64,000 bases of DNA. It comes from Erysipelotrichaceae bacterium (lineage in GTDB: Bacteria > Bacillota_I > Bacilli_A > Erysipelotrichales > Erysipelotrichaceae). The notes below the pieces were generated by a model, which ran no database searches, was not told the origin of the DNA, and was given only the letters and a program-made list of their open reading frames with translations. Both the position numbers and the translations under genes were made by a program. The stretch covers positions 1 to 64,000 of the forward strand of contig JAFWEP010000030.1 of assembly GCA_017512885.1 (NCBI GenBank), given 5' to 3'. This document shows positions 9,335 through 13,062 of the stretch, in pieces; the stretch's first letter is position 1; each line of letters opens with the position of its first letter.

Positions 9335-10507
9335 ATGACGAATCAAGCACTCGAATTTGATGATGTTTCGGCTGATGCTTCGTGGGCATATCTCGACGAA
9401 GGGGATCTTAAAAAACAGATCTCCGGACTGAGCAGCAGGGTCACCCAGACAGCCGCTCATCTGGAGAAAGTCATCTTCAACAATGACTACGAAGATACCG
9501 AAAAGATGTACAACGACCTGGCTCTGCGTGACCTCAGTCTCGAAGGCTGGGCAAATTCCTTTATCTCGTTCAATACCGAAGCTTTTGACAAATACCTGAA
9601 CGGCACATCAAAACCGGAATTCTATGCCGGTCTGTCGATGCAGGATCAGAAGGCTTACGATATCTGTCTGAAGTACTACAAAGATCTGAAGCAGATCGCT
9701 CCGATCCTGCACCAGCTCTGTCTGACGATGACGCTCCTGCCGCTCAAAGACGGTTTCAAGTTCCAGCGTCTGGTGCTCAATCTCATCGATGAGGGCTACG
9801 ACGAAGAGTTCTACGATCAGATCAACCGGGATGTCGAGGATATCTGCACCCTGATCAATACCAGCTGGGAAGGCATGGAGAGAGGCTATGCCAGCAGTGC
9901 AGAGCAGTACTATAACCAGAATGCCGGCGGCGTCTCCCGCAGCGAACTGATCCAGGGCTACCGCAGCAGGAGACTGCGTTCCTACCAGATCGCCGTAGAA
10001 AGTTTCAAATATCGTGACTTCCGGGCGAATTCCGACGGTACCTTCAGTCTGGACCTCAACATGTATATCCTGCTGGAGATCCTGGACAAGTACACCATGC
10101 AGCTGTCGATCCTGCCCAACATCAAGGATCCCTGCAAGAAGGTCATGGAAGAGTGCCACAACAACATGGCGGCCCTCAACAAGGTCTTCGCGGATATCCG
10201 GACGGAAAACTGTCAGACCCTGCTGAATGCGGTGGATGATCTGATGCATAAGATCTACAGCTATGCAGAGACCAGTCTGGCCGTCTATGAACAGCTGGAA
10301 AAGAGGGACGGGGATGCCCCGTACCGCTTCCTGAAGAAACTGCCGGCATACAGCCGGATGAGCGGGAAGTACTATTTCACGCCGATCACGGCCGATCCCT
10401 TCCATGACGGGACGCAGTACGTCAAGCTGTTCAAGTCTGCTGTGAGGACGCTGAATGAACACTGCAAGGAGTTCGTCTACGACCACGGACATCCGGAACT
10501 GAAGTAG
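9335..10507 (+). CDS. Helical protein of unknown function (390 aa)
   Basis: I do not recognise this protein. It starts at an ATG with a GAGGAGG site 14 bases after the previous stop. It is almost entirely helix-forming, soluble and acidic, rich in tyrosine, leucine and asparagine, with no membrane segment, no P-loop and no obvious catalytic motif. The organisation suggests a scaffold or helical repeat domain working with the 428-residue partner upstream. A strong terminator follows, so the two genes form a closed operon. Confidence 0.85.
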   Translation: MTNQALEFDDVSADASWAYLDEGDLKKQISGLSSRVTQTAAHLEKVIFNNDYEDTEKMYNDLALRDLSLEGWANSFISFNTEAFDKYLNGTSKPEFYAGLSMQDQKAYDICLKYYKDLKQIAPILHQLCLTMTLLPLKDGFKFQRLVLNLIDEGYDEEFYDQINRDVEDICTLINTSWEGMERGYASSAEQYYNQNAGGVSRSELIQGYRSRRLRSYQIAVESFKYRDFRANSDGTFSLDLNMYILLEILDKYTMQLSILPNIKDPCKKVMEECHNNMAALNKVFADIRTENCQTLLNAVDDLMHKIYSYAETSLAVYEQLEKRDGDAPYRFLKKLPAYSRMSGKYYFTPITADPFHDGTQYVKLFKSAVRTLNEHCKEFVYDHGHPELK

Positions 10508-10583: not shown

Positions 10584-10659
10584 TGGTGGAGCATAGCGGA
10601 ATCGAACCGCTGACCCCCTGCTTGCAAAGCAGGTGCTCTCCCAGCTGAGCTAATACCCC
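10584..10659 (-). tRNA. tRNA-Ala (TGC)
   Basis: A 76-nt cloverleaf with encoded CCA. Acceptor GGGGTAT pairs with ATGCTCC; the anticodon loop TTTGCAA gives TGC. It lies 20 bases downstream of tRNA-Ile on the same strand and shares its promoter. Confidence 0.97.
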
Positions 10660-10679
10660 AAAATGTATAAACAATTCGA

Positions 10680-10756
<77 letters not shown>

Positions 10757-10862: not shown

Positions 10863-11114
10863 TCAGTAAGGCTTCTGACATTCGATGAACCAACGATTCT
10901 TTTCGTAAAATAGTTTTCTCCTTTTTCCCAGGATCATACATTCATACAGCATGCCGCAGCCTCCCACCTGCGAAGAGGCTTTTCTTTTGTTTAAGACCTT
11001 ATCGACCTTATAGACCTTACGGTCCTGGTAATCCTCCCAGACGATGGAGAGGGGCGTCAGTTCGCCTTCCTTGCCGATCAGCGCTACGACCGGGATATAT
11101 CTCTTATACAGCAT
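10863..11114 (-). CDS. Small conserved-looking protein behind the Y-family polymerase
   Basis: The protein has 83 residues. The ATG is two bases after the polymerase stop codon, so it is translationally coupled. It opens with basic and hydrophobic residues (YIPVVALIGKEGELTPLSI), reads like a small beta-barrel, and ends in a strand pair with cysteine, glycine and aromatic residues (GGCGMLYECMILGKRRKLFY). I cannot name the family. The position suggests a co-regulated accessory factor for translesion synthesis or the damage response. Confidence 0.75.
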   Translation of the reverse strand: MLYKRYIPVVALIGKEGELTPLSIVWEDYQDRKVYKVDKVLNKRKASSQVGGCGMLYECMILGKRRKLFYEKNRWFIECQKPY

Positions 11115-11116
11115 CA

Positions 11117-12370
11117 CTAAAACCAGCTTTCCGGATGAATGGTATGTTCCCCAAGGGGATCGAAGGAAGTCAGGGCATCGTCCTGCAGAGCAGAACCGTA
11201 ACGCAGGGAGTAGGGACCGTAACGGCCCCGGATCTTCTCGATGGTGACTTCCAGCGAACGCTGCTTCTGCCGTGCGGCCTCTTCACCGAAAAGATCGTAT
11301 TCGCAATAGGTATGTTCGGACAGGCAGCCGGCGGTGATCGTTACACTGCGGTAGGGGACAGGAAAGACATCCTCTTCGGCCGGACAGCATTCATGGGCCA
11401 GGAAGAGAGCCAGCGAGAGGATCTCCTCAGAGAGATCGGTAGGACGGCTGAACTTGCGCTGATGGGAGAAACAGCGCAGATCCTTGTCCCGCAGATAGAG
11501 CGTGACCAGCGAACAGCGTTTCTTCTTCTGCCGCAGACGGGCGGCTACCGAATCAGAGAGCACCCGCAGCACCAGCTGCAGTTCGGTGAAGTCGTGCAGG
11601 TCATGGATCGCCGTCACGCCGTTGCCGACCGATTTCACTTCCCGCTGCCAGGAGACATCCTTCACCTCGCTGCCTTCCCAGCCGTTGGCGAAGTACCAGA
11701 TCATCTCTCCGTTCTTGCCCAACAGACGCTTCAGAAAACGGATATCGGCATCGGCCAGCTGGCCGATCGTTCTGATCCCGCAGGCATTGAGCTTATAGGC
11801 AGTCGCTCTGCCGACATAGAGCAGATCTTCGACCGGCAGATCCTTCAGCTGTTCCCGGAAGCTTTCCGGAGTGATGACCGTAAAGCCTCTCTTCTTGTCC
11901 ATATCACTGCCCAGCTTGGCGAAGATCTTGTTGAAGGAGACGCCCATCGAGACGCTCAATCCGGTCTCCCGAAAGACCCTCTCCTGGATGGTGCGGGCTG
12001 TTTCGACCGGATCGCCGAACAGAGAAACGGTCCTGCTGAGATCGAACCAGGCTTCATCCAGTCCGAAGCTTTCGACCTGATCGGTATACTCCCGGTAGAT
12101 GTCTTTGACCATCTCGGTATAGTAAACGTAATCCTCATAGTGAGGATGGATGATCAGGAGCTCCGGACACTTGCGCAGGGCATCGCGCAATGTCTCGGCC
12201 GTCTTGACTCCGGCTGCCTTGGCCAGGTCGTTCTTGGCCAGAATGATCCCATGACGGGATTCTTCTCTTCCTCCGACAGCCATCGGCACTTCCCTCAGGG
12301 AAGGAGCCATCATTTCTTCGATCTGGGCATAGCAGTGATTCAGATCGGCATGTACGATCACACGGTTCAT
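11117..12370 (-). CDS. dinB: Y-family DNA polymerase (Pol IV/UmuC-like)
   Basis: This 417-residue enzyme should perform translesion synthesis past DNA damage. The catalytic carboxylates are present in HADLNHCYAQIEE (near residue 8) and SFGLDEAWFDL (near 105). Helix-hairpin-helix segments (LYVGRATAYKLNACGIRTIGQL) follow, then the little-finger domain. Near the C-terminus, YDLFGEE resembles a beta-clamp-binding motif. It is transcribed divergently from a LexA-like repressor across a shared 95-base region with operator-like repeats, and is followed by a coupled small gene. Confidence 0.92.
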   Translation of the reverse strand: MNRVIVHADLNHCYAQIEEMMAPSLREVPMAVGGREESRHGIILAKNDLAKAAGVKTAETLRDALRKCPELLIIHPHYEDYVYYTEMVKDIYREYTDQVESFGLDEAWFDLSRTVSLFGDPVETARTIQERVFRETGLSVSMGVSFNKIFAKLGSDMDKKRGFTVITPESFREQLKDLPVEDLLYVGRATAYKLNACGIRTIGQLADADIRFLKRLLGKNGEMIWYFANGWEGSEVKDVSWQREVKSVGNGVTAIHDLHDFTELQLVLRVLSDSVAARLRQKKKRCSLVTLYLRDKDLRCFSHQRKFSRPTDLSEEILSLALFLAHECCPAEEDVFPVPYRSVTITAGCLSEHTYCEYDLFGEEAARQKQRSLEVTIEKIRGRYGPYSLRYGSALQDDALTSFDPLGEHTIHPESWF

Positions 12371-12381
12371 CTGGCTTTATC

Positions 12382-12408
12382 GTTGCATAAATAGCAGAAT
12401 TATGCAAC
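12382..12408. promoter_or_regulatory. Operator-like inverted repeat
   Basis: GTTGCATAA and its exact complement TTATGCAAC are separated by 9 bases. The element lies upstream of the polymerase gene and just outside the repressor promoter. Its half-site matches the two half-sites in front of the repressor gene. Confidence 0.7.
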
Positions 12409-12413
12409 AGGAA

Positions 12414-12442
12414 TTGGCAAATGGCTAAATATTTTCTATAAT
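12414..12442 (+). promoter_or_regulatory. Promoter of the LexA-like repressor
   Basis: TTGGCA (12414-12419) and TATAAT (12437-12442) with 17-base spacing, 24 bases before the ATG. Confidence 0.75.
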
Positions 12443-12444
12443 AA

Positions 12445-12463
12445 GAGGCATAAAGGGGCATAA
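12445..12463 (+). promoter_or_regulatory. Tandem operator half-sites before the repressor
   Basis: GAGGCATAA (12445-12453) and GGGGCATAA (12455-12463) repeat with a 10-base period between the -10 box and the ATG. They match the GNNGCATAA half-site of the nearby inverted repeat and overlap the ribosome-binding site, consistent with autorepression. Confidence 0.55.
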
Positions 12464-12465
12464 CT

Positions 12466-13062
12466 ATGGAACTGAAAGAACTGATCCAGGACATCAAGGA
12501 AAAAGAAGGCTTCAGCAACGAAGAGATCGCTGTCCGCTTAGGCGTCAACAAGACCACCGTCGGCCGCTGGCTGAGGGGAGAAGTGACCCGTTTACAGGAA
12601 GATACCACCCGCAGGCTGCAGGAATGGCTGGGTTTTGATGTCGATGCCCTGCTGAAAGGGAAAGCCGTGCTCTTTAAAAGACCGGTCGTCGGTTTCGTCA
12701 AAGCCGGCTATGACCTCTTTGCCGATCAGAACTATCTGGGAGAAGAGGAAGTCGATTATGAGGATTACCGCCGGGGAGATTTCTTCCTGAAGGTCCAGGG
12801 CAACTCGATGATCGGCTCCGGGATCATGGACGGCAGTACTGTCTATGTACAGAAGACCGAAGCGCTGCAGAGCGGCGATATCGGAGTCTTTCTGGTAGGG
12901 GAAGAAGTCACGGTAAAGAAAGTGATCTACAAGCCGGATATGCTGATCCTGGAGGCCAGCAATCCCGAAGTCCCCAACCGTTACTTCAGCAAGGAAGAAA
13001 TAAACGAGCTGCCGGTCAGAGCTCTGGGCAAAGTGCTCTATGTGAAGACACAGTTCGCATAG
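12466..13062 (+). CDS. LexA-like self-cleaving repressor (HTH-XRE + S24 peptidase)
   Basis: The protein has 198 residues. An N-terminal XRE helix-turn-helix (residues 4-56, NEEIAVRLGVNKTTVGRWL) is fused to an S24 peptidase domain. The cleavage pair is Ala80-Gly81 (FVKAGYD), the nucleophile Ser114 (GNSMIGSG) and the general base Lys151 (VTVKKV). This architecture matches HdiR-type repressors, which are inactivated after DNA damage, rather than classical winged-helix LexA. It sits divergently next to the Y-family polymerase. Regulation of the polymerase by it is an inference from the shared operators. Confidence 0.9.
   Translation: MELKELIQDIKEKEGFSNEEIAVRLGVNKTTVGRWLRGEVTRLQEDTTRRLQEWLGFDVDALLKGKAVLFKRPVVGFVKAGYDLFADQNYLGEEEVDYEDYRRGDFFLKVQGNSMIGSGIMDGSTVYVQKTEALQSGDIGVFLVGEEVTVKKVIYKPDMLILEASNPEVPNRYFSKEEINELPVRALGKVLYVKTQFA

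Follow-up and report, generated by a model that had tools for sequence, protein, structure and literature searches.

A predicted LexA-independent mutagenesis cassette with variable operators in the Erysipelotrichales

In a 64,000-nucleotide stretch of Erysipelotrichaceae DNA (the window, taken at its full length), a gene for a LexA-like repressor and a gene for a Y-family DNA polymerase point away from each other across a 95-base intergenic gap that contains several short repeats. The arrangement raises the question of whether the pair forms a DNA damage switch and, if so, whether that switch governs a wider SOS regulon or its own genes. The elements of the locus are as follows.

10863..11114, minus strand: small all-beta protein (confident model), encoded immediately after the polymerase as the cassette's third gene; 49 of 92 loci have a relative
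11117..12370, minus strand: Y-family DNA polymerase, 417 aa, with IMS and IMS_C domains
12382..12408, no strand: candidate main operator, perfect inverted repeat GTTGCATAA-N9-TTATGCAAC between the divergent genes; unique in the genome, with palindromes at the equivalent spot in relatives
12399..12427, minus strand: weak candidate polymerase promoter TAGCCA-17-CATAAT (9/12 consensus bases), with its -10 box within the operator; unlike the architecture of most relatives
12414..12442, plus strand: repressor promoter TTGGCA-17-TATAAT (11/12 consensus bases)
12445..12453, plus strand: direct half-site GAGGCATAA, 3' of the repressor -10 box; candidate second (autoregulatory) operator, with TGCATAA similarly placed in genus members
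12455..12463, plus strand: direct half-site GGGGCATAA, overlapping the repressor Shine-Dalgarno sequence; GCATAA or GCACAA just before this sequence in several relatives
12466..13062, plus strand: repressor, 198 aa, with an XRE-type helix-turn-helix and an S24 autoprotease domain (Ala80-Gly81, Ser114, Lys151)

Genes for tRNA-Ala(TGC) and tRNA-Ile(GAT) adjoin the cassette (window 10584-10756, minus strand), and frames resembling MiaA and arginyl-tRNA synthetase, as judged by eye, lie nearby.

The repeat array and its flanking genes

Direct reading of the sequence placed GTTGCATAA at 12382-12390 and TTATGCAAC at 12400-12408, forming a perfect 9-bp inverted repeat with a 9-base spacer. The direct pair GAGGCATAA and GGGGCATAA starts at 12445 and 12455 (period 10), between the repressor -10 box and its start codon, and the second copy overlaps the Shine-Dalgarno stretch AAAGGGG ahead of the ATG at 12466. 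The repeat array described in the original prediction is therefore real, with GCATAA half-sites at the two direct positions; this core, plus the first G, is all that the palindrome arms and the direct pair have in common. The window contains 13 copies of the pattern GNNGCATAA where 5.1 would be expected (0 of 100 shuffles reached 13), and the four copies of this pattern in the intergenic region were equaled in 0 of 20,000 dinucleotide shuffles, for a pattern picked post hoc. Any perfect 9-bp inverted repeat with a spacer of 0-25 arose in 351 of 20,000 shuffles (1.8%) of the same 95 bases. Conservation in relatives, described below, is the strongest support for the palindrome as an operator. 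The direct half-sites are plausible as a second, autoregulatory operator, a prediction less firm than the palindrome; in the window, the repressor's own half-site between operator and start is reduced to the GCATAA core. In the window's genus, the polymerase ATG lies 11 bases from the palindrome, and the sole candidate polymerase promoter is weak (9/12). A near-palindrome at window 10245-10267 sits inside the 9335-10507 reading frame and was taken as chance.

The repressor matched HTH_31 (XRE) and Peptidase_S24 in Pfam. A LexA-like cleavable repressor with an Ala-Gly site and a Ser/Lys dyad had been predicted, and inspection of the sequence confirmed A80-G81, S114, and K151; G81, S114, and K151 are invariant across 60 homologues. 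The S24 autoprotease domain, Ala-Gly site, and Ser-Lys dyad are shared with the canonical LexA proteins of E. coli and B. subtilis, and the predicted model (pLDDT 92) gives the protease half a LexA-like fold (1jhe; 126 alignment columns, rmsd 1.9). The DNA-binding half differs from LexA: an XRE helix-turn-helix replaces the winged domain (PF01726), which was absent among the Pfam hits of the repressor, and sequence matches to LexA did not extend across this half. The NCBIfam lexA model scored 69 bits (cut-off 111) in an alignment confined to the protease part. The other S24 hit in the genome was an open frame with a hydrophobic N-terminus that resembles a signal peptidase, and the repressor was the only repressor-like S24 protein found there. 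A search of 195 family genomes turned up no convincing LexA DNA-binding domain; the PF01726 hits were weak (best 31 bits, in a 133-aa frame) and were rejected as LexA. Judged from these searches, the sampled family seems to have no canonical LexA.

The polymerase was assigned to the Y family by matches to PF00817 (IMS; E 1.4e-37) and PF11799 (IMS_C; E 4.1e-18), and its nearest NCBIfam model is PRK03103 "DNA polymerase IV," with a score below cut-off. The genome encodes two Y-family polymerases, and an open frame that by eye looks YolD-like follows the second. The small protein has about 80 residues and the consensus YKxYVDVI...PL...W...ID+VL...AS.VGGCG..Y.C.I.G..R.LF.E..RWFIES. It had no match in Pfam above cut-off, in PHROGs, or in PDB sequences, and Foldseek and VIA-align returned weak hits only (best Z 3.5), with no clear fold match. 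Where its relatives occur among the 92 cassette loci, they are often the direct divergent partner of the repressor.

Pairing and operators among relatives

Of 195 genomes of the family, 155 encode a repressor homologue at E≤1e-10; at E≤1e-20, the count for the order is 169 of 244, with Candidatus Stoquefichus and Massilimicrobiota among the named relatives. A Y-family polymerase is divergent from the repressor in 63 of the 92 loci examined, mostly 76-162 bp apart; 39 of these polymerases are of the window's kind and 24 of a UvrX-like kind. About 15 further loci have the small gene divergent from the repressor instead. The pairing of two polymerase subfamilies with one repressor family represents strong guilt by association, and the predicted arrangement of a LexA-like repressor divergent from a Y-family polymerase was borne out in relatives, where the position of the operator is conserved as well.

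Palindromes of the class GTTGCRT-N12-14-AYGCAAC were located at about 34 places in the 195 genomes, 14 of them directly upstream of a repressor homologue; most of the places away from repressors were in reading frames or near unrelated genes. In a sequence-blind scan, 30 of the 92 upstream regions contained a palindrome with p≤0.05, compared to 4.6 expected; about two thirds had no significant palindrome. Palindromes of 25-29 bp recur between the repressor and its partner gene, at a similar position and span and with a range of half-site types (GTTGCAT, GTTGCGT, GTTTCTT, TATACAT, GTCCGAT, GTTCCA, TTATCAT, TTACGT, TTCCCAT, and GTCTCAT). The best polymerase-side promoter has its -35 box within the operator in 35 of 45 selected sites, a proportion inflated to an unknown degree because sites were picked by palindromy plus a central-CAA bonus (ten were added by hand) and the bonus tilts the choice toward TTG at the operator center as read on the polymerase strand. 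Whether a suitably spaced -10 box was present had no influence on which sites were chosen. In the usual form, the operator center supplies TTGA(A/T) on the polymerase strand as the -35 box, and the -10 box follows 16-17 bp on; the genus of the window did not show this geometry. In the stretch from the main operator to the repressor start, own half-sites were enriched over foreign ones (28 of 45 versus 17 expected; Wilcoxon p 1.7e-4), which supports a second, autoregulatory site in the cassettes. In four genomes of one genus, the polymerase and repressor genes lie apart, and there the polymerase promoter bears GTTGCATAATATATTGAATTATGAAAC, GTTGCGTTAAATATTGATATATGCAAC, or a degenerate form, for which regulation in trans would be the simplest reading.

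Other motifs were encountered in these surveys. Distant homologues at L124-L133 carry ACTTGAA...TTCAAGT close to their start, a shorter motif and a different operator class; most of these homologues have the recognition helix SFTT(I/V)QKW. At L050, L052, L053, and G108:C3:335421, all in one genus, a regulator gene resembling a transcription antiterminator is preceded by the conserved sequence GTTGCGTATCTT(T/A)ACGATAACGCAAC, probably the site of another regulator. The intergenic sequence GTTGCATAATATACATTATGCGCATTA at L171 (G000:C27:16704) is a shorter palindrome with the same core, with no frame of at least 60 aa starting within 200 bases.

The variety of half-sites was compared with divergence of the repressor domains in 36 non-redundant pairs. 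Half-site distance tracked the N-terminal domain when the C-terminal domain was controlled (partial Mantel r 0.46, p 0.0002), and the C-terminal (protease) domain gave r -0.005 when the N-terminal domain was controlled. These values come from one revised analysis; the first Mantel test used a rigid half-site register and gave a weak result (p 0.10 for the helix with the C-terminal domain controlled), and because the register was visibly wrong for several sites, half-site distance was redefined to tolerate shifts. Similar recognition helices accompany the same half-site across families, as judged by eye (HITVGRW and HNTVCRW with TATACAT; KSTVSRW with GTTGCAT). Genomes with two cassettes mostly have unlike half-sites: TATACAT and GTTCCA in G006, TTCCCAT and TTACGT in G127, GTTGCAT and TATACAT in G202, and GTTGCAT and the TTTGGGAAT type in G228. 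Both cassettes of G022 have half-sites that look like GTTGC. G234 also carries two cassettes with unlike operator half-sites (example loci L159 and L160). On balance, we lean slightly toward the view that the order holds mutually insulated damage switches, in which the repressor-polymerase chassis and the placement of the operator across the polymerase -35 box stay fixed and half-site and recognition domain have been paired anew on many occasions; two or more cassettes in one cell would then each have their own address.

Extent of the regulon

The perfect palindrome is present in one copy in the 2.09-Mb genome. Across the whole genome, no other place matched GTTGCAT-N13-ATGCAAC when at most one of the 14 specified bases was allowed to differ, the sole 2-mismatch copy lies within a reading frame, and copies with up to 3 mismatches number 36, compared to 27 for a reversed-pattern control. 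GTTGCATAA has 7 genome copies, two of them at this locus, and none of the five other exact half-sites is next to a recognizable repair gene. The palindrome is absent from the promoters of recA and of the second Y-family polymerase, and operators at recA and other SOS genes, a hallmark of canonical LexA, were not found. The original prediction had envisaged a damage regulon reaching recA, uvr, and ruv genes, and the genome scan for the palindrome and half-sites at repair genes yielded nothing convincing; uvr and ruv were covered by the genome-wide pattern searches. Its description of an SOS-like operator unlike known LexA boxes is supported: the operator is unlike the LexA boxes tabulated in PMC9578287, and half-sites track the DNA-binding domain. 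The wider regulon is not supported. Since both its domain composition and its regulon depart from those of canonical LexA, the repressor is not a canonical LexA. The regulon is predicted to consist of the repressor and polymerase genes, with the small gene that follows the polymerase a probable third member.

Proposed mechanism, alternatives, and known systems

The locus is most probably a self-contained, LexA-independent, SOS-like mutagenesis cassette (probability roughly 0.85). In the proposed mechanism, a dimer of the XRE-S24 repressor would bind the 27-bp palindrome and shut off the divergent polymerase gene along with the small gene that follows it, and the repressor would limit its own expression via the half-sites at its own promoter. 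When DNA is damaged, RecA filaments formed on single-stranded DNA would set off self-cleavage at Ala80-Gly81, with Ser114/Lys151 as the catalytic residues; the cut would separate the DNA-binding domain from the dimerization domain and release the polymerase for translesion synthesis. Sequence comparison shows the gene pair, the motif, the conserved catalytic residues, an operator over the polymerase -35 box in relatives, a half-site that follows the DNA-binding domain, and a palindrome at unlinked polymerases. Less easily fitted to this reading are the promoter arrangement in the window's genus, the relatives with no significant palindrome in the blind scan, and the different, shorter motif of the most distant group. 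Binding, RecA-triggered cleavage, damage induction, and mutagenesis would be expected from the known biology of these protein families.

As the sole cleavable repressor found in a genome whose sampled family apparently lacks canonical LexA, the protein might instead be a master SOS regulator in place of LexA, acting on recA, uvr, ruv, and others via half-sites or degenerate palindromes; phage-like S24 repressors of Bacteroidetes do run a full SOS regulon (PMC8565304). The searches described above make this unlikely: they returned no second palindrome with 0-1 mismatch, a lone 2-mismatch copy in a reading frame, and copies with up to 3 mismatches at a level hardly above the control, neither recA nor the second Y-family polymerase has the palindrome, and the other exact half-sites lie away from recognizable repair genes. 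The architecture of the repressor is also typical of phage repressors, and relatives occur in phage records at 23-32% identity. It is nevertheless very improbable that the module was left by an integrated prophage or mobile element, with the palindrome as a phage operator and no cellular damage switch, given that the neighbors (the tRNA genes and the frames resembling MiaA and arginyl-tRNA synthetase) look like housekeeping genes and the repressor-polymerase pairing is kept across an order. An ancient phage origin of the repressor is compatible with the mutagenesis cassette too. The connection of repressor to palindrome is drawn from sequence, and the palindrome could in principle belong to another regulator, with the nearby repressor a coincidence. 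We consider this the least credible of the alternatives, as the half-site changes with the DNA-binding domain of the repressor rather than its protease domain and paralogous repressors in one genome mostly adjoin different half-sites.

Read as a mutagenesis cassette, the locus would work like HdiR-umuC, UmuDAb, and FddR, in which a non-LexA cleavable repressor holds down an error-prone polymerase. HdiR of Lactococcus and Streptococcus is an S24 repressor in LexA-less hosts that controls itself and a UmuC-type polymerase and is triggered by RecA (PMC8565304); its operator consensus, tttATCAGtTtttCTGATaaa, has short arms close together (PMC1592510). What the cassette has in common with HdiR is its setting, a genome in which no LexA was found, and an XRE-S24 repressor gene that adjoins the gene for a UmuC-type polymerase. 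The arms here are GTTGCAT with a 13-base gap, whereas the HdiR pattern ATCAG-N6-CTGAT was not found in the intergenic sequence. Clp processing is required for full derepression by HdiR, which is reported from Streptococcaceae, and the cassette here spans another order. FddR of Francisella is an S24 repressor that acts on the palindrome GTG-N11-CAC at its own promoter, with divergent genes that include dinB in some species (PMC13148647). The likeness lies in the S24 repressor, the palindrome at its own promoter (predicted here), and the divergently transcribed target. The palindrome GTTGCATAA-N9-TTATGCAAC does not conform to GTG-N11-CAC, diverged FddR paralogues keep one shared motif whereas paralogues here mostly have different half-sites within a genome, and the hosts are unrelated groups. 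Acinetobacter, which lacks LexA, represses its error-prone polymerases through the cleavable UmuDAb together with the small corepressor DdrR, and there too a small gene is divergent (PMC11332147). The UmuD protein in this case has an unusual N-terminal domain, and the UmuDAb operator needs a central GTnAC core; the N-terminus here is XRE-type, the variable specificity lies in the arms, and the small gene matches no family. The non-canonical LexA of Bacteroidetes places a phage-like N-terminal domain on an S24 protease, in the absence of canonical LexA and with lineage-specific motifs (PMC8565304). It commands a full SOS regulon via GGA-N5-TCC or CTAA-N5-TTAG, and here a local cassette was all that was seen. 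Literature searches on Erysipelotrichia and SOS found nothing relevant. The cassette is apparently spread through an order, with re-matched operator specificities.

With this cassette, the S24 repressors that have taken control of an error-prone polymerase gain a case that apparently spans an order. The proposal suggests how widespread gut bacteria seemingly without LexA could keep mutagenesis damage-inducible, and bears on how such bacteria acquire mutations under antibiotics. The many natural repressor-operator pairs, with one architecture and varied half-sites, make specificity evolution and the insulation of paralogues directly testable, and if the switches are indeed insulated, these pairs would amount to a natural recognition code.
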